DNA of 64,000 nucleotides. It comes from Croceicoccus pelagius (GTDB lineage Bacteria; Pseudomonadota; Alphaproteobacteria; Sphingomonadales; Sphingomonadaceae). The position numbers and the translations under genes were made by a program. The notes beneath the pieces were generated by a model that was not told the DNA's origin, did not search any database, and was given only the letters and a program-made list of their open reading frames with translations. Positions 2,825-22,934 of the stretch are shown here, piece after piece; the stretch's first letter is position 1, and each line of letters starts with the position of its first letter. The stretch is from contig NZ_LYWY01000040.1 of NCBI RefSeq assembly GCF_001661915.1, forward strand, positions 1 to 64,000. The letters run 5' to 3'.

Positions 2825-4407
2825 GCGCTAAGCCAAAAATCCTGCGCTGCGCGATCTACACCCGCAAAAGTTCGGAGGAAGGGCTCGACCAGTCCTTCAA
2901 CAGTCTCGATGCCCAGCGCGAAGCGAGCGAGGCCTATGTGAAGAGCCAGGCCAGCGAAGGCTGGACCGTCCTGCCTGCCCATTACGACGACGGCGGTTAT
3001 TCTGGCGGGACAATGGATCGGCCCGGGCTGCAGCAGCTGCTGTCCGATATCGAGGCCGGCCAGATCGACATCGTCGTCGTTTACAAGATCGACCGGTTGA
3101 CCCGCTCGCTCACCGACTTCTCGCGTATCGTCGAGATATTCGAGAAGGCCGATTGTAGCTTCGTCTCGGTCACCCAGTCCTTCAACACCACAAACTCGAT
3201 GGGTCGCCTGATGCTGAACGTGCTTCTCTCGTTCGCCCAGTTCGAGCGCGAGGTCACCGGCGAGCGCATCCGTGACAAGATCGCAGCGTCCAAGGCAAAG
3301 GGCTTCTGGATGGGTGGCAATCTGCCCTTGGGCTATGACCTCCCGGTGGCCGGAACACGTAAGCTCGTCGTCAACGAGGCGGAGGCCGGAACGGTCCGCC
3401 ATATCTTTCGGCGCTATCTCGAACTGGGATCGGTCCACGCGCTGCAGCGCGATCTGGATGCAGCCGGCATCCGCTCCAAGCAGCGCGTGACGATCTCCGG
3501 CAAGACGGTGGGCGGCAACAGCTTTACCCGTGGCCCGCTCTTTCATCTCCTGCGCAACCGCATCTACCTCGGCCAGATCGTGCACAAGACCAAGATCCAT
3601 GAAGGCGAGCACGCCGCCATTGTTGGTGCCGATCTCTTCGAGCAGGTTCAGGCCAAGCTCGATGCCAATGCGCGGCGGTTCCACAAGGCGGCGCAGCATC
3701 GCATGGTGAGGGCGCCGCTTGTCGGCAAGCTCTTCGATGCCGGCGGCGATGCGATGAGCCCGACTTTCTCACGTGGGAAGTCGGGACGCTCTTACCGCTA
3801 CTATGTCTCCGCTTCGCTGCAGAAGGGTGCGGCCAGCAACCGCGATGGCAAGGTTCTGCGGCTTCCTGCACCTGCCATCGAAGCTATCATCGCCGGCCTT
3901 CTGCATCGCTGGCTGCCGTGTGAAGACAAGCCAAACGACAAGCTGCGCCAAGTGCGGCTTTGCGACGGTGGGCTTGCAATCACGCTTGCGGGCGTGAAGG
4001 TGTCCGATCTGGCGATCCACCTCGATGAGGAGGAGCGGCTTATTCACCAGGAGCGATCGGGGTGCACGATCCAGCTTCCGATCGCACTGCCATTGCGCGG
4101 TGGGCGCAGCCGCATGACGTCCGGGACCAAATCCAGCAGTGCGCCGAACGAGAAACTGATCGCAGCGCTGCGGCGTGCCCATGGCATGCTAGGGCGCGAT
4201 CGGGGAATGCCGATCTTGCAGTCCGCGCCCGTCTCTCCCTACGAGCGCAAGATCCTCCGGCTTGCGTTTCTGGCTCCCGACATCCAGCGCGACATCATCG
4301 CCGGCCGCCAGCCTCCGCACGTAAACCTGGAAAGACTGGTCAAGACGGACATCCCGCTTGCCTGGTCCGAGCAGCGCAGATCACTCGGTTGGCCGGGTGC
4401 CAATTGA
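2821..4407 (+). CDS. Large serine recombinase
   Basis: This 528-residue site-specific recombinase has an N-terminal resolvase domain. The catalytic serine is probably Ser17 in YTRKS. The typical VVYKIDRLTRSLTDF helix and the FAQFEREVTGERIRDK segment follow. A central recombinase domain includes GPLFHLLRNRIYLGQIVHK. The C-terminal part is short compared with phiC31-type integrases. ATG at 2821 was chosen because it overlaps the DUF2924 stop and starts just before the domain. The pairing with DUF2924 and the facing tRNA-Ser suggest it serves an integrated element, but whether it integrates or only resolves cannot be told. Confidence 0.9.
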   Translation: MSAKPKILRCAIYTRKSSEEGLDQSFNSLDAQREASEAYVKSQASEGWTVLPAHYDDGGYSGGTMDRPGLQQLLSDIEAGQIDIVVVYKIDRLTRSLTDFSRIVEIFEKADCSFVSVTQSFNTTNSMGRLMLNVLLSFAQFEREVTGERIRDKIAASKAKGFWMGGNLPLGYDLPVAGTRKLVVNEAEAGTVRHIFRRYLELGSVHALQRDLDAAGIRSKQRVTISGKTVGGNSFTRGPLFHLLRNRIYLGQIVHKTKIHEGEHAAIVGADLFEQVQAKLDANARRFHKAAQHRMVRAPLVGKLFDAGGDAMSPTFSRGKSGRSYRYYVSASLQKGAASNRDGKVLRLPAPAIEAIIAGLLHRWLPCEDKPNDKLRQVRLCDGGLAITLAGVKVSDLAIHLDEEERLIHQERSGCTIQLPIALPLRGGRSRMTSGTKSSSAPNEKLIAALRRAHGMLGRDRGMPILQSAPVSPYERKILRLAFLAPDIQRDIIAGRQPPHVNLERLVKTDIPLAWSEQRRSLGWPGAN

Positions 4408-4408
4408 T

Positions 4409-4631
4409 CCCTGTTATGGCTGATTAGCTCCCCTGATATCGCCGATAGAGGCCCCTGTTACGGCGATTAAATACCCTGTTCCGTCGAAGAACAGGAAAAC
4501 GGGCAATAGATGCCCCTAACCCACGGAAAACCGCAGACTATATCCAGGCACCTTCCCTTCAGATCGCCTCACGTGGTCTGTTTTTCGCCTCGAATTCGCA
4601 ATTTTCCCTGTTCCTGCCCTGTTATGCAGGG
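4409..4631. repeat. CCCTGTT repeat cluster in the 393-base spacer between recombinase and tRNA-Ser
   Basis: The spacer 4408-4800 has no convincing gene. CCCTGTT occurs at 4409, 4453, 4474, 4606 and 4617, and a variant CCCTGAT lies near 4431. The first two copies extend into a longer match (CCCTGTTATGGCTGATTA and CCCTGTTACGGCGATTA). The last copy forms a palindrome, CCCTG at 4617-4621 with CAGGG at 4627-4631. Such clustering next to a serine recombinase suggests a recombinase-binding or attachment region. This is inference from position only. Nothing else is seen in 4632-4800. Confidence 0.5.
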
Positions 4632-4800
4632 AAACCGAACCGATGCTGGTTCGCGCAGAGACGCCCTGCGCAAAGCCGGCCTGTTCCCGAGGATGAGACA
4701 CACAGATCACGCGCCCCACGACGGATTGGGCCGCGCAAAGCCGCTTGTTCCGCGGGGTTGGCGCGGGGCCCTGTTCCTAGAGACAAGTGCTGGGGGTAGG

Positions 4801-4890
4801 TGGCGGAGCGAGAGGGATTCGAACCCTCGATACGGGTTACCGTATACACACTTTCCAGGCGTGCGCCTTCGACCACTCGGCCACCGCTCC
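4801..4890 (-). tRNA. tRNA-Ser (GGA)
   Basis: Read on the minus strand, the gene starts GGAGCGGTGGCCGAGTGG and ends in GCTCCGCCA. The acceptor stem pairs GGAGCGG with TCGCTCC, with G as discriminator and CCA encoded. The anticodon loop contains GGA. A long variable arm, typical of serine tRNA, precedes the T arm GGTTCGAATCC. The tRNA reads UCC and UCU codons. The 3' end points toward the serine recombinase, the usual geometry for an element integrated at a tRNA 3' end. Confidence 0.97.
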
Positions 4891-4995
4891 GCATGCCTGA
4901 CGGCAGAGGGGCGAACTAGCGCTACGCGCGAGACAAGGCAAGGCAATCATGACGCTTTTTGCGCCATGCCCTGCCCCGCCCCCGATCCGTCCTAA

Positions 4996-5997
4996 TCAGA
5001 TCACCGCAGCGCCGTTGTCGAGACGGTCGAAATAGGCCGCCATGGCGGACGCAGCCAAGTCGCTCAGTTCGATGAAAGCGCGGCGGCGGTCCTGCGGATC
5101 GCGGACGCGGTCGAGCAATCCGGATTCGGTCATCTGCCCGATCCAGCGCAGCGCCGTGGTCGGCGGCACGCAGGCCGCGATGCACAGGCTGGACACGCTG
5201 ACCTGCTGACCCTCGCCCTTTGCCGCGGTAAGGTCGAGCAGGATATCCCAGGCAGGATCGGCAAAAAGTTCGCCTTCGAAGAATTGAGCGCGAAGCTGAC
5301 GCTGGCGAATGATTTCACGGACGAGGACCGGCGAAGGAAGTGCCGGGTTGGTACCGGCAGCTGGCGCCCTCTTTTGGCTTGGTGGTGCCATATAAGACAG
5401 AACCGGCGAACGGACGCTGAAACTTTCATCCTCAAACTCGTCGGCGAGCTTACCGCCCTGTGCGACAAAACCGTCCATCTTGCGTGCCAGCATCTGAACC
5501 TGTTCGGTGAGGCGGAGCAGCGCAAGGCGGTCTTCCCCGCTCAATTCGTTGACGGTGCCCACCGGCATCCGCGCCAAGGCATTACCGAGCGCCAGTGCCC
5601 GCTCCGCCTCGGAAGGCGACACGAGGATCTGGGCCGAGGACTGGTCCACGCAGCCGAACACGCTGTCGAGTGCCTCTGCCGAAGTCGATACGATCATCTC
5701 GCACCCGCTGCGCGCGGCGCGCATGTCGAGGCGAGCAATCGTGGCGAGAAGCTCGGCATCAATCACCGGCGCATCGATGATGACGATATCGCCCAGCACC
5801 AGTGCTTCCCCGCCCGTCAGCCGCGAAAGCGGTTCTGACTGTCGCAGGACGAGGCCCACTTCCAACGCGTGATCGCACAAGGTCGAGCGAAGCGCATCGC
5901 GGCTGGCGAAAATGGAAATGCTGGCCGCGGCGGAACGCGAAGGGCGCTCAGCCGGGGACGCATCATCGAACCGGAACGCTTCTACAACTTGTGCCAT
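4996..5997 (-). CDS. Winged-helix regulator with an N-terminal pseudo-receiver-like domain
   Basis: The 333-residue product ends in a winged-helix segment (about 230-325) with WDILLDLTAAKGEGQQVSVS, TTALRWIGQMTESGLL and DRRRAFIEL, resembling MarR-type DNA-binding domains. Residues 25-150 alternate strand and helix like a response-regulator receiver (VIIDAP, CEMIVSTS, QILVSP) but lack the usual acidic pocket and lysine. ATG at 5997 is preferred to a TTG 45 bases upstream. A GGGG lies about ten bases before the ATG. The gene follows purA on the same strand after 100 bases. The target genes are unknown. Confidence 0.7.
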   Translation of the reverse strand: MAQVVEAFRFDDASPAERPSRSAAASISIFASRDALRSTLCDHALEVGLVLRQSEPLSRLTGGEALVLGDIVIIDAPVIDAELLATIARLDMRAARSGCEMIVSTSAEALDSVFGCVDQSSAQILVSPSEAERALALGNALARMPVGTVNELSGEDRLALLRLTEQVQMLARKMDGFVAQGGKLADEFEDESFSVRSPVLSYMAPPSQKRAPAAGTNPALPSPVLVREIIRQRQLRAQFFEGELFADPAWDILLDLTAAKGEGQQVSVSSLCIAACVPPTTALRWIGQMTESGLLDRVRDPQDRRRAFIELSDLAASAMAAYFDRLDNGAAVI

Positions 5998-16331: not shown

Positions 16332-16949
16332 TCAGTGCAACCAGTCGCCTATCGATGCTTCGAGGCGCAGGCGAACCGCCTCTGCCGCGTGGCGCGCACC
16401 CAGCTTTTCCATCATGTTGCCGCGGTGGATTTCCACCGTGCGCGGGCTGATGTCGAGGTCGCGGGCGATTGCCTTGTTCGAACAGCCTTGGGCCAGCCGG
16501 TCCAGCACTTCGCGTTCGCGGTTCGACAGCATCGAAATCCGCGTCCGTGCATCGAGCGACCGCTTGCGGATTTCCACCTGCGTCGCCGCTTCGCGCGCGA
16601 CGCGTTCGATTGCCAGTTCGAGCGCCGGGGGGTGTAGCGGCTGCGGCAGGTAATCGAACGCGCCCGCGCGCATCGCGGAAACGACGTGATCGATGCAGGG
16701 CCGGTCGGCCATGGCAATGATCGGCAGCCACGCGCCCTTTTCGGCCATGGCATCCATCAGTCCCGCGATGCCGCCCGTCGACTGGTCGTCACGGGCAAGG
16801 ACGATCCCCTTACGCGGCATGTGCGAAGTCAGTTCGAAGACGTCGTCGTAGACTTCGGCGTGATGCCCCATCTCGAACACGGCGCGGGCATATTGCGCCC
16901 GATTGCGCGGATCGACGTCAACGATGTGGATGATGCTGCGCTTTGCCAT
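16332..16949 (-). CDS. FixJ-like response regulator with a degenerate receiver
   Basis: The 205-residue protein has a receiver-like half (1-120) and a LuxR-type DNA-binding domain (about 138-200) with LSNREREVLDRLAQG and ISPRTVEIHRGNMMEKLGA, closely FixJ-like. A candidate phospho-acceptor Asp54 (VLARD) and Asp11 remain. However, the second acidic residue is Val12, the switch Thr is Met80, and the invariant Lys is Gln103 (YLPQPL). It may act without normal phosphorylation. No kinase gene is adjacent. Its targets are unknown. Confidence 0.85.
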   Translation of the reverse strand: MAKRSIIHIVDVDPRNRAQYARAVFEMGHHAEVYDDVFELTSHMPRKGIVLARDDQSTGGIAGLMDAMAEKGAWLPIIAMADRPCIDHVVSAMRAGAFDYLPQPLHPPALELAIERVAREAATQVEIRKRSLDARTRISMLSNREREVLDRLAQGCSNKAIARDLDISPRTVEIHRGNMMEKLGARHAAEAVRLRLEASIGDWLH

Positions 16950-17101: not shown

Positions 17102-17860
17102 TCATTCCGCAGTCGTGGTCTTGTCCAGCGAATAGGACGGCAGCGAATGGAACGCGGTGCGCAGCGCCTCGCTCCACCCAGTAGAGATCGACTGGAAGAA
17201 CGGATCGCTGGCGTGAATGCGCCTCTCATGCAACGGCTCGAAGTTGTCGCGTTCAATCACCATGAGGTCGAGCGGCATACCCACCGACAGGTTTGCCGCG
17301 AGCGTCGAATCCATCGACACCATGAGCAGCTTCACCGCATCCACGAAATCCATGTCGCGGTTGTAGGCGCGGATGATGATCGGGCGGCCGTACTTCGTCT
17401 CGCCGATCTGGAAGAAAGGCGTGTCCATCGACGCCTCGATGAAGTTGCCTTCGGGGTAGATCAGGAACAGGCGCGGCTCCATCCCCGCGATCTGGCCGGC
17501 GACGATGATCGATGCGGTGAACTTGGGCCCGCCCGACATGTGATCGTTCGATTCCTGACGCTTGCGGATGGTTTCGGACAAAAGATCGCCGATCATCGTG
17601 GCAACGCGGAACATCGTGGGCGCGCGAAGGATCGATGGTTCGCGGTCTTCGGGTGCCTTGGTGCGTTCTTCCAGCAGGCTGATCACCGCCTGCGTCGTGG
17701 CGAGGTTGCCCGCAGTCATCACGGCGATCACCCGCTCGCCCGGTACGGACCAGCTGTGCATCTTGCGAAAGACGGAGATGTTGTCGACGCCCGAATTGGT
17801 GCGGGTGTCGCTCATCAGCACCAGCCCCTTGTCCAGCATCATGCCGACGCAATAGGTCAA
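17102..17860 (-). CDS. Anbu-type bacterial proteasome homologue (Ntn hydrolase)
   Basis: This 252-residue protein belongs to the Anbu family, self-compartmentalising relatives of proteasome beta subunits. After removal of the initiator residue the chain begins TYCVG, placing Thr as residue 1, with Asp17 (SDTRT) and Lys32 (FRKM) as the expected active-site partners. The start is a TTG at 17860 with AAGGGG nine bases upstream, and it is the only start giving an exposed threonine. It is the last of five same-strand genes with a transglutaminase, alpha-E, ATP-grasp and hydrolase. The substrate is unknown. Confidence 0.93.
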   Translation of the reverse strand: MTYCVGMMLDKGLVLMSDTRTNSGVDNISVFRKMHSWSVPGERVIAVMTAGNLATTQAVISLLEERTKAPEDREPSILRAPTMFRVATMIGDLLSETIRKRQESNDHMSGGPKFTASIIVAGQIAGMEPRLFLIYPEGNFIEASMDTPFFQIGETKYGRPIIIRAYNRDMDFVDAVKLLMVSMDSTLAANLSVGMPLDLMVIERDNFEPLHERRIHASDPFFQSISTGWSEALRTAFHSLPSYSLDKTTTAE

Positions 17861-17945
17861 GAATTTTGCCCCTTCATGGCTTGTCCGCGCAGGTTCGAAG
17901 CTGTTCGCTCCACCGCGATTCCGCCTCGCTTAGCGCAAGTGGCGC

Positions 17946-18758
17946 CTATTGTTCCACTGTCTGCTGCGAAACTTCGAGTTCGACGCTCAGGCTGTCGCCA
18001 GATCCGCCGAAGCTGATGCCGGTGATCGGCGCCGCTTCGGAATAGTCCTTGCCCGTCGCGACGCGGACATAGCGGGCATCGGGACTGATCCCGTTCGATA
18101 TGTCGAACCCGACCCAGCCGAGATCCTTGATGAACGCCTCGGCCCAGGCGTGACCGGCCTCTTGCATGACGCGGTCTTCCATCATCAGGTAGCCCGACAC
18201 GTACCGCGCCGGAATGCCGAGATGGCGCGCGCAGCCAATGAAGATGTGCGCGTGATCCTGGCACACGCCGTGCCCCGCCTCTGCCGCTTCCTCCGCAGTC
18301 GTTTCGCTGGTCGTGCGGCCCGTTTCGTAGCGGACCTTGTCCAGCACCTTGGCGGACAGTTCGTGAAGCATGTCCAGGCGGTCGTCGCTGTCAGCCATGC
18401 CGGAAACGATTGCCTTCATGGCAGAGCCCGGCTTCGTCATCTTCGACTGGCCTGCGAAATGCCAGATCGGCAAATGTCCTGCATGGCGACCGATCACGCC
18501 GGCGTTGTCGTTGGTATCGACCAGCCCGCGGCATTCGATTTTCACCTGCTGGATGCCGGGTTCGACAGCGACCAGCGTGGTCGTGTTGCAGTTGTGGTCT
18601 TCATACTCCAGTTCGCGGTGTGCGCCTTCCATGTTCATCGACCATTCGATGATGGACTGCCCGCTGGTGCTCTTGGGCGTGAGGCGCAGGCGTTGTAGCG
18701 CGTGGACGACCGGCTCTTCGAAATCGTACCGGGTGCGATGGGTGATTGCGATGCGCAT
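17946..18758 (-). CDS. Transglutaminase-like cysteine protease
   Basis: The 270-residue protein has an N-terminal beta-rich bacterial transglutaminase-like domain (from MRIAITHRTRYDFEEPV) and a catalytic core with Cys in GHGVCQDHAH, His in AGHAWAEAF and Asp in VGFDISNG. Family members usually hydrolyse peptide or isopeptide bonds rather than crosslink. No signal peptide is seen, so it is probably cytosolic. It lies 12 bases downstream of the alpha-E gene and 85 bases before anbu, a conserved partnership. It may cut the bond made by the ATP-grasp enzyme (inference). Confidence 0.92.
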   Translation of the reverse strand: MRIAITHRTRYDFEEPVVHALQRLRLTPKSTSGQSIIEWSMNMEGAHRELEYEDHNCNTTTLVAVEPGIQQVKIECRGLVDTNDNAGVIGRHAGHLPIWHFAGQSKMTKPGSAMKAIVSGMADSDDRLDMLHELSAKVLDKVRYETGRTTSETTAEEAAEAGHGVCQDHAHIFIGCARHLGIPARYVSGYLMMEDRVMQEAGHAWAEAFIKDLGWVGFDISNGISPDARYVRVATGKDYSEAAPITGISFGGSGDSLSVELEVSQQTVEQ

Positions 18759-18770
18759 GGGCAGCTCCGG

Positions 18771-19715
18771 TCAGTCGGTAAAGCGGTAGTCGGTTTCGAC
18801 GGCGCGGGCGATGTCGTTGTTGCACGCGATGAAGTCGCTCAGAAACTCGTGCAGCCCCATGTCGATGACGAAATCGATATCCCTGTCCTGCAGCTTGAGA
18901 TCGGCATTGCGCATGACCTCGTGCGCGCGGACTTCCCCGCCGTATTGTAGCGCCAGGCTATGCAGGTTCGAACGGATCTTCGAATAGCAGAACGACAGCG
19001 AGCGCGGGAAACGTCCGTCGAGGATCAGGAAATCGGCAATACCGCGGGCATCGAGTTGCCCTGCATTGAGCCAGCGATAGGCCCGCTCCGCCCCCAGCGA
19101 GCGCAGGATGGTTTCCCACTGCACGTTGTCGAGGCTGGACCCCACGTACGACAGCGAGGGCAAGAGAACGTAGTATTTCACGTCGAGGATACGGGCCGTA
19201 TTGTCGGCACGTTCGATGAAACTGCCGATGCGCGCGAAGTTGTAGATGTCATTGCGCAACATCGACCCGTCCATCGCGCCGCGCACCAGAGTCGATTCGC
19301 GCTTCACGGTGTTGATCGCGTCGGCAAGGCCGGACTGGTTGACGGGGCGGGCCAGCAGGTCGTTGAGCTGGAGATAGCTCTCGTTCACCGCCTCCCACAG
19401 CTCGCTGGTGATAACGTTACGAGCCGATCGCGCATTGCTGCGCACCGCCCCGATCAGAGAGCGGATCGAGTTGGAGTTTTCGCGATCGCGCAAGATGTGG
19501 TTCCACACCTGTATGCCGGTGTAGGTGCCGTGCTGTTCCTGATAGGAATCGCGCATTCCCGCAGTTTCGATGACCGACCGCCATTCCTCTTCGGCAGTAA
19601 GGTGGTCGCGGGTAAGTGCCATGCGAAAGCCGGTATCGAGCAGGCGGGCAAGATTCTCCGCCCGCTCAAGATAGCGGAACATCCAGAACACGGCGTTGGC
19701 TGAGCGTCCGAGCAT
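18771..19715 (-). CDS. Alpha-E domain protein
   Basis: This 314-residue, almost wholly helical protein starts MLGRSANAVFWMFRYLERAENLARLLD, the conserved alpha-E opening (COG2307). Charged helices continue to a C-terminal DMGLHEFLSDFIACNNDIAR. Alpha-E proteins have no known activity. They always accompany the circularly permuted ATP-grasp ligase and may position its substrate. The start lies five bases after the ATP-grasp stop, implying translational coupling. No signal peptide or membrane helix is seen. Confidence 0.93.
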   Translation of the reverse strand: MLGRSANAVFWMFRYLERAENLARLLDTGFRMALTRDHLTAEEEWRSVIETAGMRDSYQEQHGTYTGIQVWNHILRDRENSNSIRSLIGAVRSNARSARNVITSELWEAVNESYLQLNDLLARPVNQSGLADAINTVKRESTLVRGAMDGSMLRNDIYNFARIGSFIERADNTARILDVKYYVLLPSLSYVGSSLDNVQWETILRSLGAERAYRWLNAGQLDARGIADFLILDGRFPRSLSFCYSKIRSNLHSLALQYGGEVRAHEVMRNADLKLQDRDIDFVIDMGLHEFLSDFIACNNDIARAVETDYRFTD

Positions 19716-19720
19716 CGTCC

Positions 19721-21151
19721 TTACTCCTCCAGCACCCAGCTGTCTTTCGTGCCGCCGCCCTGGCTGGAGTTAACCACCAGGCTGCCGCGTTTCAGCGCGA
19801 CGCGGGTGAGGCCGCCGGGGGTAATCTCGATACCGTTGGGGCTCATCAGCACGAAGGGACGCAAGTCGACATGGCGCGGGGCGAGTCCCTTCTTGGTCAG
19901 GATCGGAACGGTGGAAAGCGAGAGCGTGGGCTGCGCGATGTAATTATGCGGGTTGGCCTTCAGCTTCTCGGTGAAACTGGCAATCTCTCGCCGCGAGGAC
20001 GTGGGACCGATCAGCATCCCGTAGCCGCCCGAACCATGCACTTCCTTCACGACCAGATCAGCGATGTTGTCGAGGACGTACTTGAGCGCGTCCTCCTCCA
20101 TGCAGCGATAAGTCTCCACATTGGGGAGCAACGGTTTCTCGCCCGTATAGAACTCGACGATTTCGGGCATGAAGGAATAGAGTGCCTTGTCATCGGCAAT
20201 GCCGGTGCCCGGCGCGTTGGCGATCGTGATGCCGCCTGCGCGATAGACGTCCATGATGCCGGGCACGCCCAGCATGGAATCGGCCCGGAACGTAAGCGGA
20301 TCCAGGAAATCGTCGTCGACTCGGCGATAGAGCACATCGACCGGCGTGAACCCGCGCGTCGTGCGCATCTGCACCCGCCCGCCCATGACGCGAAGGTCCG
20401 ATGCCTCGACCAGTTCCGCACCCATCTGGTCGGCAAGGAAGGCATGTTCGTAATAGGCCGAATTGTAGATGCCCGGCGTCAGCACCGCGACGACAGGGCG
20501 GCCTTCGCAAGCCGGCGGGGCGCAAGCGGCAAGGCTGCGGGCAAGGCGGCGCGGATAGTTCGAAACCGGCGCGACCTTTACCCGCGTGAACAGTTCGGGG
20601 AACATCGCCATCATCGTTTCGCGGTTTTCCAGCATGTAGGAAACGCCGCTGGGCGTGCGGGCATTGTCTTCCAGCACGTGAAAGTCGTTGGGGCCGGTGC
20701 GAACAAGGTCGATGCCGGTGATGTGGGTATAGACGTTACCGGGCGGGGTGAAACCGCTCATGTGCGGCAGGTATGCCGGATTTCCGCGCAGCAGCCATTC
20801 GGGCACTCGGCCCGCCTTGATGATTTCCTGGCGGTGATAAAGGTCGTGAAGGAAGGCGTTGAGCGCCCTCACCCGCTGCTCGATCCCGCGCGACAGGCGG
20901 CGCCATTCCTGCGCGGTGACGATGCGGGGCACCGGGTCGAACGGGATCAGCCGTTCCTCGGCATCTTCCTGGCCATAGACGTTGAAGGTGATGCCGGTCT
21001 TGCGAAAGAACGCCTCGGCTTCCTGGTGCTTGCGCTTCAGCCCTTGCGGATCCTGCTCGTCATACCAGTCCCTGTACCCTTTGTAGGCAGCGCGTACCCC
21101 CCCTTCGGCGTCGATCATCTCGTCGAAATTGTCGGGGCTATGTGCGCTCAT
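19721..21151 (-). CDS. Circularly permuted ATP-grasp ligase
   Basis: This 476-residue enzyme belongs to COG2308, in which the ATP-grasp lobes are circularly permuted. Recognisable segments are YGQEDAEERLIPFDPVPR, VLEDNARTPSGVSYMLENR, LVVKEVHGSGGYGMLIGP (nucleotide lobe) and HVDLRPFVLMSPNG near the C terminus. ATP-grasp enzymes join a carboxylate to an amine, so a peptide or amide ligase is predicted. Substrates are unknown. ATG at 21151 overlaps the upstream hydrolase stop by four bases. An upstream in-frame start would add 34 arginine-rich residues and is rejected. Confidence 0.93.
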   Translation of the reverse strand: MSAHSPDNFDEMIDAEGGVRAAYKGYRDWYDEQDPQGLKRKHQEAEAFFRKTGITFNVYGQEDAEERLIPFDPVPRIVTAQEWRRLSRGIEQRVRALNAFLHDLYHRQEIIKAGRVPEWLLRGNPAYLPHMSGFTPPGNVYTHITGIDLVRTGPNDFHVLEDNARTPSGVSYMLENRETMMAMFPELFTRVKVAPVSNYPRRLARSLAACAPPACEGRPVVAVLTPGIYNSAYYEHAFLADQMGAELVEASDLRVMGGRVQMRTTRGFTPVDVLYRRVDDDFLDPLTFRADSMLGVPGIMDVYRAGGITIANAPGTGIADDKALYSFMPEIVEFYTGEKPLLPNVETYRCMEEDALKYVLDNIADLVVKEVHGSGGYGMLIGPTSSRREIASFTEKLKANPHNYIAQPTLSLSTVPILTKKGLAPRHVDLRPFVLMSPNGIEITPGGLTRVALKRGSLVVNSSQGGGTKDSWVLEE

Positions 21152-22077
21152 GCCTTGTCCGTTTGCTGAGTGTCGGGAATGTCGGGATTGTCGAGCTCGC
21201 AGGGCGGATCGGCGAGAACGCCGGCCACCGCCTCGATCGCGGCGGGGTGCCATGCAAAACCCATGTGCGTGCAGCGCACGTGGAGCGCGAGATCGCGCTC
21301 ACCCGGGCGGCCGCAGGCGCAGTGGCGATGGACGATACCGTCCTGAGCGCTCCACAACGCGACAGTCGGCACAGCGGGCTTGGCCGCGAAATCCTCGCCC
21401 ACGGGCGGTTCGTCGACCGGGTGGCCGACCAGCCAGTGATAGATGCGCCATGCATTGTTGCCGTGCATGTCGCCGGAGAAGGGCGAGCCCATCGTCACAA
21501 CCATTTCGACATGATCGGGCAGCCGCTTTGCCACTTCGCGCGCGAATACGCCACCAAGGCTCCACCCCACGAGGGTTATCTTGCGGCCCTCGGCGCGCGA
21601 CACGCGCTCGATACGGGACAACAAGCGGTCGAAACGGTCCTCGCTCGCTCCCAGGTTCCAGCCTAGGCCCCAGTCCGTCACCGAGTGCCCCGCCTTCTTC
21701 AACGCGTCGCGCATAGCGGCCATACGCCACGGGTGCGACCCGAAGCCGGGCAAGAGCATGACCGAGCGCGGGCTGGTCACTTCGGCGATCTTCGGCTTGC
21801 CGTGGATCGCGGAATAGAGATGGGGAAAGGCCAGTGAGGCGAATTCGGAGATCAGCAGGCGCGAAGGCGGCGTCGACACGCCATCGGGCTGCGGGCGCGA
21901 GGCCAGCGAATGACGACGGCGGAATTCGGCGAGGAGCAGGCTGAAACCGCGGCCCGGCTTCTTCGGCCCCTTTGCCGTGTCCAGAGCGGGGTTCCGACCA
22001 TCGGGCAGCCGAGCTTCGATCACGGCCTGTGCGCCGTGTTCAGAAACCTTGCTGTCATGCGTGGTTGCCATGGTCAT
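21148..22077 (-). CDS. Alpha/beta hydrolase heading the Anbu/ATP-grasp operon
   Basis: The 309-residue protein has an extended N-terminal segment of about 100 residues and then an alpha/beta hydrolase core: VMLLPGFGSHPWRM, nucleophile elbow GWSLGG, WSAQDGIV for the acid, and a late CTHMGFAWHP for the histidine. No signal peptide is evident. It is the first gene of the operon and its stop overlaps the ATP-grasp start (ATGA), so the two are probably made together. Substrate unknown; an amidase, esterase or lipase-like role are all possible. Confidence 0.8.
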   Translation of the reverse strand: MTMATTHDSKVSEHGAQAVIEARLPDGRNPALDTAKGPKKPGRGFSLLLAEFRRRHSLASRPQPDGVSTPPSRLLISEFASLAFPHLYSAIHGKPKIAEVTSPRSVMLLPGFGSHPWRMAAMRDALKKAGHSVTDWGLGWNLGASEDRFDRLLSRIERVSRAEGRKITLVGWSLGGVFAREVAKRLPDHVEMVVTMGSPFSGDMHGNNAWRIYHWLVGHPVDEPPVGEDFAAKPAVPTVALWSAQDGIVHRHCACGRPGERDLALHVRCTHMGFAWHPAAIEAVAGVLADPPCELDNPDIPDTQQTDKA

Positions 22078-22206
22078 CCCGTCAGTCTTAGCAAAACACT
22101 TCGCAGGTGCAAAATGATTGAACTGCAGTTGCGAAATTGCCGCCCTGTCCTCCCAACGCGCCGGATTGGCAGTGGTTTCCGCTTTTCCCGATCAGCCCGC
22201 TTCCAA

Positions 22207-22794
22207 TCAACCGGGGCAGTCACCCGTCCGCTTGCTGGTCACGTGCATTTTCATGGCCATGCGGCCGCCCGGCAGATTCGACGACGTCATGTCCATCGCC
22301 ATGTCCATTTCCGAGCCCGTTTCCGTGCCGGTCCCGCTCATCGTCATCGTGCCGCGGGCATCGTCGTTATCGCAGCTCATCTTGCCGACGAACTTGCCGC
22401 CGTCGACCTTGAAGCTGTCTACCGTGCAGCCTTCCTGCTGCGCCTTGGCCAGTTCCTCGAAGCCTTTTTCAGCCTCGTCCGGCGTCAGGCACCGACTGGT
22501 GGTGCGCGACAGCGAGGCGACCATCATGTCCTTCATCTGCTTGGCCTGCGCTGCCGGAATGCCGGGAACGTCAAGTTCGACGAGTTCAGCGCTCGACGTG
22601 TACTGCCCGGGTTTCGGCCGGACCGCCTTTTTCATCTCGGCCTCGATCTCATCGTTGCTCATGCCTTGGGGCGCGGTCAGCGCGTCTTGCGCTGCTGCAT
22701 CGGACTGCTCTGCCGGTTCGTCCGAACCGCAGGCGGCCAGCGCAAGCGGCGCAAGGCACAGGACGGCAAGCCTCGACACGGGGCGGATGTTCAT
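22207..22794 (-). CDS. DUF3617 family lipoprotein
   Basis: The 195-residue product has a lipoprotein signal (LALAAC) and a DUF3617-type body with KPGQYTSS, a cysteine pair (SRCLTPDEA, GCTVDSFKV) and a methionine-rich end (GTETGSEMDMAMDMT). It is probably periplasmic and membrane-anchored. The function of DUF3617 is unknown. ATG at 22794 was chosen because GGAG lies upstream. An in-frame start 57 bases earlier would spoil the signal peptide. It stands alone between the Anbu operon and the J-domain gene. Confidence 0.8.
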   Translation of the reverse strand: MNIRPVSRLAVLCLAPLALAACGSDEPAEQSDAAAQDALTAPQGMSNDEIEAEMKKAVRPKPGQYTSSAELVELDVPGIPAAQAKQMKDMMVASLSRTTSRCLTPDEAEKGFEELAKAQQEGCTVDSFKVDGGKFVGKMSCDNDDARGTMTMSGTGTETGSEMDMAMDMTSSNLPGGRMAMKMHVTSKRTGDCPG

Positions 22795-22934
22795 TTCGTT
22801 TCTCTCCGAAAGACGAGACTGTCTTTGATGCTGAATTTGACCGGGGTGCACGCTAGACCACGCCCCCGCGATTGCAACAGTCGGCAGGTAAAGTCGCGCC
22901 AGGGAGAGAGGGAGGAAGGCTGCGCAGCGCCCGA

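Follow-up and report, generated by a model that had tools for sequence, protein, structure and literature searches.

A sphingomonad Anbu operon with a duplicated Alpha-E protein and candidate PhaR-type operators

The window examined here is a 64,000-nucleotide stretch of Croceicoccus pelagius (contig NZ_LYWY01000040.1, positions 1 to 64,000), in which five adjacent minus-strand genes are predicted to encode a hydrolase, an ATP-grasp ligase-like protein, an Alpha-E protein, a transglutaminase-like protein, and the proteasome relative Anbu. Judged by its protein families and their order, this locus represents the known Anbu operon of four genes in its sphingomonad version, preceded at the 5' end by a serine hydrolase gene. 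The gene set itself had already been described, and what is new here is a predicted regulatory link together with an internal duplication of Alpha-E. The upstream sequence is the most informative part of the locus: from the operator-like sites found there, we give an even chance that the Sphingomonadales Anbu operon belongs to the regulon of PhaR, a repressor sensing the storage polymer polyhydroxybutyrate (PHB), and would thus be built when carbon storage granules form. The features discussed are as follows, with the abbreviations used below for gene orders.

21148..22077, minus strand: alpha/beta hydrolase (HYD), 309 amino acids, candidate triad Ser173, Asp246, His271; clade-limited accessory gene
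19721..21151, minus strand: circularly permuted ATP-grasp type 2 protein, ligase-like (GRASP), 476 amino acids, PF14403 (1e-164), relative of 3n6x
18771..19715, minus strand: Alpha-E protein (AE), 314 amino acids, PF04168 (2e-86), all-helical model, two homologous halves
17946..18758, minus strand: transglutaminase-like protein (TG), 270 amino acids, PF01841 and PF08379, Cys166, His203, Asp219
17102..17860, minus strand: Anbu, proteasome beta-subunit relative (ANBU), 252 amino acids, TTG start, Thr1 as candidate nucleophile
22124..22135, minus strand: distal TTCGCAACTGCA site, one arm of an inverted pair, about 58 bp before the hydrolase start
22100..22111, plus strand: proximal TTCGCAGGTGCA site, second arm of that pair, about 37 bp ahead of the hydrolase start
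22207..22851, minus strand: DUF3617 protein (D3617), PF12276, upstream neighbour, not claimed for the module
16332..16949, minus strand: FixJ/LuxR-type response regulator (RR), assigned by Pfam, downstream neighbour, not claimed for the module

The families, order, and spacing that a first-pass annotation had assigned to the five genes were all recovered by an open reading frame check of the window and by Pfam, with an overlap of 4 nt between hydrolase and ATP-grasp genes followed by gaps of 5, 12, and 85 nt. Matches were strong for the ATP-grasp protein (CP_ATPgrasp_2, 1e-164), Alpha-E (Alpha-E, 2e-86), and the transglutaminase-like protein (Transglut_core, 1e-24, and Bact_transglu_N, 4e-18); Anbu matched Proteasome at 8e-9, and the hydrolase matched Abhydrolase_1 weakly, albeit over the cut-off (3.7e-7). 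The last gene is identified as Anbu because solved Anbu chains match it (5loy, E 1.6e-86; 5nyj, E 6.7e-74). Its five best PDB matches (5loy, 5nyj, 5nyf, 5nyw, 5lox) comprise three labelled Anbu and two labelled peptidase, the top one, 5loy, being a designed Anbu; among these, 5lox is given as Anbu in one publication (PMC8665760). The TTG start leads to Met-Thr, and Thr1, Asp17, and Lys32 are all present (counted by eye, aligned to 5loy). One solved relative of the ATP-grasp protein, 3n6x, matches nearly its full length (E 4.2e-191), and polar residues are conserved across an alignment of 143 sequences. The transglutaminase-like protein aligns with 3isr around Cys-His-Asp (residue numbering by eye). 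Among named relatives, the Alpha-E search placed Croceicoccus mobilis nearest (L198; Alpha-E 79% identical).

The Anbu operon (COG2308-COG2307-COG1305-COG3484) is said to have been described by Iyer et al. 2009, Fuchs et al. 2017, and Piasecka et al. 2018. All four families occur in the window on one strand and in that same order, the catalytic residues of Anbu are kept, and there is likewise no AAA+ partner among the genes. The window differs by the additional hydrolase at the 5' end, by the lack of a strong sigma-54 site upstream (a trait of some copies only), and by the PhaR-type or related operator-like sites that are found upstream in part of the sphingomonad copies.

The breadth of this arrangement was assessed in two sets: an order sample of 147 Sphingomonadales genomes with 57 Alpha-E loci (56 fetched loci plus the window, some at contig ends), and a named set consisting of the best 80 of 518 confirmed Alpha-E loci. 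Across the order sample, Alpha-E was detected in 57 genomes, Anbu in 51, and a hydrolase match in 83, with Anbu and Alpha-E found together in 45 genomes vs. 19.8 expected (p 4e-20). The order GRASP-AE-TG-ANBU was found in 43 of the 57 order-sample loci (25 with and 18 without the hydrolase) and in at least 59 of the best 80 named loci, and is therefore the known, widespread Anbu operon. The remaining order-sample loci read GRASP-AE-TG (8), GRASP-AE (3), and AE, GRASP-AE-ANBU, or AE-TG-ANBU (one each). Among the best 80 named loci, 49 had the four genes, 10 these genes plus the hydrolase, 18 no adjoining Anbu (15, and 3 with a second TG match; mostly Rhizobiales), and 3 other arrangements; only adjacency was scored for these 18, and at least one (L202) is cut by a contig end. 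Gene order and tightness thus exceed chance, which bears out the operon-like layout proposed by the first-pass annotation. The five genes are not equal members of one set, however: the hydrolase proved clade-limited and separable, and 18 named loci show no adjoining Anbu. Overall, the first-pass interpretation is partly supported. One genome without an Alpha-E match (G135) encodes an orphan Anbu (C1:1358001-1358726) 43% identical to that of the window.

The hydrolase precedes the operon in only 10 of the best 80 named loci, and we reject it as a universal fifth gene. It is instead an addition in part of the Sphingomonadaceae/Erythrobacteraceae, separable from the operon. Ser173, Asp246, and His271 are invariant in an alignment of 13 hydrolase sequences, so the protein is probably active as a serine hydrolase. 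Its structure model is poor (predicted local distance difference test score, pLDDT, 66; built on 9 sequences) and its matches are spread over many generic alpha/beta hydrolases, thioesterases, lipases, and esterases; a substrate class is not claimed from the fold. Whether the gene shares a function with the operon is finely balanced: it falls just short of an even bet that the hydrolase is a chance neighbour, i.e., that a stable DUF3617-hydrolase pair sits beside the operon in one clade with no common function. One genome (G068, locus L119) has the hydrolase beside DUF3617 in a similar neighbourhood, with uvrB-like and extensin-like genes nearby as in the window (read by eye), and no Alpha-E or Anbu match; 10 genomes likewise have a strong hydrolase match but no Alpha-E. 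In addition, hydrolase and ATP-grasp genes are 59-82 nt apart in 18 of 24 order-sample relatives, with an operator-like site inside this gap in two of them (L077, L091). Against a chance association stand the 4-nt overlap in the window, four other Croceicoccus genomes (L278, L279, L281, L282), and two further loci (L083, L095), the operator-like site that in the window, L278, L279, and L282 precedes the hydrolase instead, and the adjacency kept in 25 of the 57 order-sample loci. These data caution against treating five adjacent genes as one biochemical cycle.

Further observations concern the same neighbourhood. The G068 locus represents a natural near-empty site, with DUF3617 and the hydrolase but without GRASP-AE-TG-ANBU, and no response regulator was found in the 12-kb stretch around its hydrolase. 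Of the 25 order-sample loci having the hydrolase, 22 have DUF3617 upstream and 24 have a FixJ-like response regulator beyond the Anbu gene, on its downstream side; in the window copy of the latter (16332-16949), the receiver domain scores weakly. In Novosphingobium flavum (L205, about 3523-5577), a membrane GGDEF-type protein, read by eye, is located between the hydrolase and ATP-grasp genes.

Upstream of the operon, a region left unmentioned by the first-pass annotation, two related patterns were counted within 130 bp before the ATP-grasp start. The shorter form, TGCRNYGCASMA, is the PhaR consensus as published, deduced from footprints and aligned promoters according to PMC6201568; isolated matches to it in L079 and L198 had already been seen when it was counted here. 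The longer form (counted with up to one mismatch), with a core one base longer than that of TGCRNYGCASMA, first came to notice on visual inspection as TTCGCANNTGCARCA, shared by the L075 and L077 upstreams, and was then searched; relaxed versions were chosen after more sites had been seen, so its enrichment is partly circular. Of 55 order-sample genomes (L094 and L107 had no usable ATP-grasp upstream and were left out of the 57), 11 have exact TGCRNYGCASMA before ATP-grasp, vs. 0.17 expected from Markov shuffles and about 0.3 from its rate in whole loci. The longer form occurs in 7 of the 55 (0.54 expected), and no order-sample genome has both. As controls, the consensus was found in none of 181 upstreams of D3617, HYD, AE, TG, and RR, and the reversed patterns gave 0; across whole loci, 26 consensus matches compare with 1 of the reversed pattern. 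Matches upstream of Anbu in 3 of 45 order-sample loci may mark a second, internal promoter. In 764 kb, made up of 60 fetched loci plus the window, TTCGCANNTGCARCA has five exact matches, all of them 53-73 bp before ATP-grasp; twelve chosen genomes contain 49 longer-form matches vs. 0 of the reversed pattern, and in the genome of C. pelagius itself a shorter version, TTCGCANNTGCA, has 23 matches vs. 2 reversed. For the best 80 named loci (n = 79 ATP-grasp upstreams), the longer form was found in 8 (1.17 expected) and the consensus in 3 (0.47 expected); two of these eight (L228, L240) are Rhizobium loci with a poor match, and the rest are sphingomonad-type loci. Seven of the eight loci of one genus (g2, L111-L118) carry the exact PhaR consensus before ATP-grasp.

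In the window, the hydrolase is preceded by two longer-form sites in inverted orientation, at 22100-22111 and 22124-22135. The 12 bases of the distal site are identical in one congener (L278) and differ at two positions in another (L279), and a longer-form site lies at -37 to -39 before the hydrolase in 4 of the 13 other Croceicoccus genomes (0.11 expected), so that the genomes with this arrangement are the window, L278, L279, L280, and L282. Elsewhere, the longer form upstream of the hydrolase was found in 1 of 25 order-sample loci, the window itself (0.12 expected), and in none of 10 named loci. Five of the 13 congeners (L283-L287) have the exact PhaR consensus before ATP-grasp instead, as TGCAACGCAGCA at -50 and inside the hydrolase 3' end; it is absent from the window, which has the longer form. 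We read this Croceicoccus pattern as turnover of one operator kind, for which PhaR is the most likely owner. A terminator-like hairpin (22116-22097) overlaps the proximal site, part of which may alternatively be read that way. No promoter-like site emerged from a simple sigma-70 scan of the window.

A PhaR gene is present in 10 of 10 genomes tested, including that of C. pelagius. The longer form (at most one mismatch to TTNGCANNTGCARCA) is found at -29 to -55 of phaR in 7 of 10 genomes (p ≤ 0.015 each; L181, L182, and L185 are without it), and in 10 of 10 genomes the consensus occurs somewhere within the 3.3-kb phasin gene loci. A FixJ-like response regulator was considered as owner of the motif and is unlikely: four loci (L064, L067, L071, L075) have the motif without such a gene in the fetched stretch.

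Several results weigh against assigning the operon to PhaR. In the window, the longer form alone is present, and its spacing departs from that of the published consensus; its counts are partly circular, the form having first been seen by eye in L075 and L077. Neither form lies upstream of ATP-grasp in 37 of the 55 order-sample genomes, nor in 4 of the 14 Croceicoccus genomes (L281, L288-L290); outside sphingomonads, there is no clear excess of either form upstream of ATP-grasp, and seven of the eleven consensus matches come from the single genus g2. Longer-form sites also occur near genes with other roles, namely glnK (two genomes), dusB, hfq, and an Lrp gene by Pfam, and typA-like (three sites), dnaB-like, and other genes by eye; neighbouring genes were read for 30 of the 49 longer-form sites in the twelve genomes. 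In the portions of the open-licence literature searched, PhaR papers included, we found no link of PhaR to Anbu or to a circularly permuted ATP-grasp protein. A Sinorhizobium meliloti PhaR paper lists SMb21227, described only as an ATP-grasp protein, among PhaR-affected proteins.

Part of this distribution would be explained if the longer form were owned by a nitrogen or amino-acid regulator (NtrC, NtrX, or Lrp-type), a reading to which we give appreciable weight, though clearly less than an even chance. The sites at glnK, at dusB, and at the Lrp/AsnC gene fit it, as does one between hfq and an NtrX-like gene (NtrX read by eye). Three points speak against it: the sites at phaR in 7 of 10 genomes, the PhaR consensus taking the corresponding promoter in other genomes, and, in PMC6201568, the listing of nifR among PhaR-repressed genes with a site in Bradyrhizobium. 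Longer-form sites in L153, L154, L163, L132, and others perhaps outline a wider sphingomonad regulon.

Nitrogen is linked to this operon elsewhere. Homologues in Pseudomonas and Burkholderia are induced by nitrogen limitation according to PMC8050072 and PMC5491218: nitrate, compared with ammonium, raises PP_2685 and PP_2688 of Pseudomonas putida (PMC8050072), and Burkholderia cenocepacia I35_5080-5083, encoding an ATP-grasp protein, Alpha-E, and two transglutaminase-like proteins, are NtrC-dependent (PMC5491218). In the window, the upstreams of GRASP, HYD, and D3617 score 11-12 of 15.5 in a sigma-54 scan (p 0.18-0.67). Near-full scores were reached in the order sample only before L063 (14.5) and L065 (15.5), with 13.5 as the next best, and the strict pattern was absent from the 79 of the best 80 named loci that have an ATP-grasp match (L225 and L231 being without its start). 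For lack of a site, we reject sigma-54 control of the window operon, even though rpoN was found in 59 of 59 genomes. If PhaR does regulate the operon, carbon excess with nitrogen shortage would be a trigger shared with these lineages, reached by a different route.

The second new element is the structure of Alpha-E, which on alignment evidence is an internal duplication, its two halves being homologous. HHalign paired residues 7-98 with about 155-254 at a probability of 97.6% (E 3e-12), vs. E 0.39 for the reversed control and E 0.0026 for the best of 30 block-shuffled controls. Each half contains an ERA(E/D)NxAR motif, and E17, R18, R24, E168, R169, R175, and D178 are identical in 64 of 64 sequences. 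The AlphaFold model is all-helical (pLDDT 89.8); a Foldseek search of the PDB with this model returned no convincing match (best E 0.24), and phmmer vs. the PDB returned nothing up to E 1. A literature search turned up no relevant publication on the duplication, which narrows the possible nature of a still-unexplained protein.

The genome of C. pelagius also provides a clue to the partner of Alpha-E. Elsewhere in it (C32, L002:1453-3864), an 803-amino-acid protein joins a circularly permuted ATP-grasp domain to Alpha-E, and a second copy of the transglutaminase-like gene adjoins it. This locus has the ATP-grasp, Alpha-E, and transglutaminase families of the window; it differs in that the first two form one protein, in that the only Anbu match of the genome is that of the window, and in the replacement of E161, N163, K322, K369, and D429, which are at least 97% conserved in 143 canonical ATP-grasp sequences. 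The natural fusion and the fixed adjacency of the separate genes therefore support Alpha-E as a dedicated partner that would work with ATP-grasp. The genus g2 loci (L111-L118) have no Anbu match and consist of GRASP-AE, accompanied by TG in some of them; a further, fused copy lies at another place in these genomes.

From these elements we propose that the locus is likely a module driven by ATP that makes and cleaves amides, and that the cell would use it when carbon is in excess and nitrogen scarce. In such conditions, PHB granules would draw PhaR off its TGC-rich operators and switch the operon on. The ATP-grasp enzyme would then spend ATP to activate a carboxylate and join it to an amine, with Alpha-E as its dedicated partner in amide formation; for a relative, release of phosphate from ATP has been published. 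The Cys-His-Asp transglutaminase-like enzyme and the Thr hydrolase Anbu would, judging from their residues, cleave or rearrange the same kind of amide. The gene set would thereby make and recycle a small amide or peptide compound, the product being presumably small rather than a protein tag because no tag gene fits between the five genes. The hydrolase, an optional component, would probably trim an ester, thioester, or amide of the substrate or product. As a whole, a PhaR-controlled small-amide make-and-recycle module with an optional hydrolase is our best explanation, held tentatively and at somewhat below even likelihood. Two published results count against it, both in PMC6376114: three standard proteasome substrates were all left uncleaved by purified Anbu proteins, and specific interactions of the Yersinia operon proteins were not detected. 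The combination of one amide-forming with amide-cleaving enzymes, which the first-pass annotation had also proposed, agrees with the view of the four-gene operon in PMC5666114 and PMC6376114.

Related systems delimit this module. Glutathionylspermidine synthetase/amidase pairs an ATP-grasp amide ligase with an amidase, and the solved relative 3n6x is labelled a putative glutathionylspermidine synthase; in the window, however, ligase and hydrolases are separate genes of other families, and a glutathione or polyamine role is unsupported. Pupylation, to which the locus had initially been likened, shares with it a ligase and a proteasome-like protein in one locus. Its ligase PafA has a glutamine-synthetase fold, whereas the window ligase is an ATP-grasp protein. 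No Pup-like gene fits in the window gaps, the rest of the genome not having been searched for a tag gene, and Pfam found no AAA+ ATPase among nine locus proteins scanned (the five genes and four neighbours). Together with the missing proteasome-substrate cleavage and operon-protein interaction noted above (PMC6376114), these differences leave that analogy without support.

A cycle of protein tagging and removal, in which ATP-grasp and Alpha-E attach a small tag and the transglutaminase-like protein and Anbu remove it, was the first proposal for the Anbu operon according to PMC6376114 and draws on the relation of Anbu to the proteasome. We consider it unlikely, given gaps (-4, 5, 12, and 85 nt) without room for a tag-protein gene, the absence of an AAA+ ATPase among the five genes, the 18 of 80 best named loci without an Anbu adjoining the operon (the rest of those genomes not having been searched), and Yersinia proteins that gave neither complexes nor peptidase activity (PMC6376114). 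Nitrogen salvage, with Anbu degrading proteins or peptides non-specifically in starvation and the other enzymes freeing or re-using amide ammonia, fits the reported induction of homologues by nitrogen limitation, but is equally improbable: it leaves unexplained the ATP-consuming ligase and Alpha-E, the most constant pair, as well as operons without an adjoining Anbu, and no peptidase activity was seen in vitro (PMC6376114).

Reportedly recognised in 2008-2009, the Anbu operon still lacks an established substrate, product, or phenotype. The predicted operator ties it to a defined repressor and physiological state, making its function directly testable in a culturable sphingomonad. If our proposal is correct, separate lineages would have arrived at nitrogen-linked control of this operon through different regulators (PhaR here, NtrC/sigma-54 elsewhere), Alpha-E, a duplicated helical protein without a solved relative, would be a ligase partner, and a close relative of the proteasome core would join the response to carbon/nitrogen balance.

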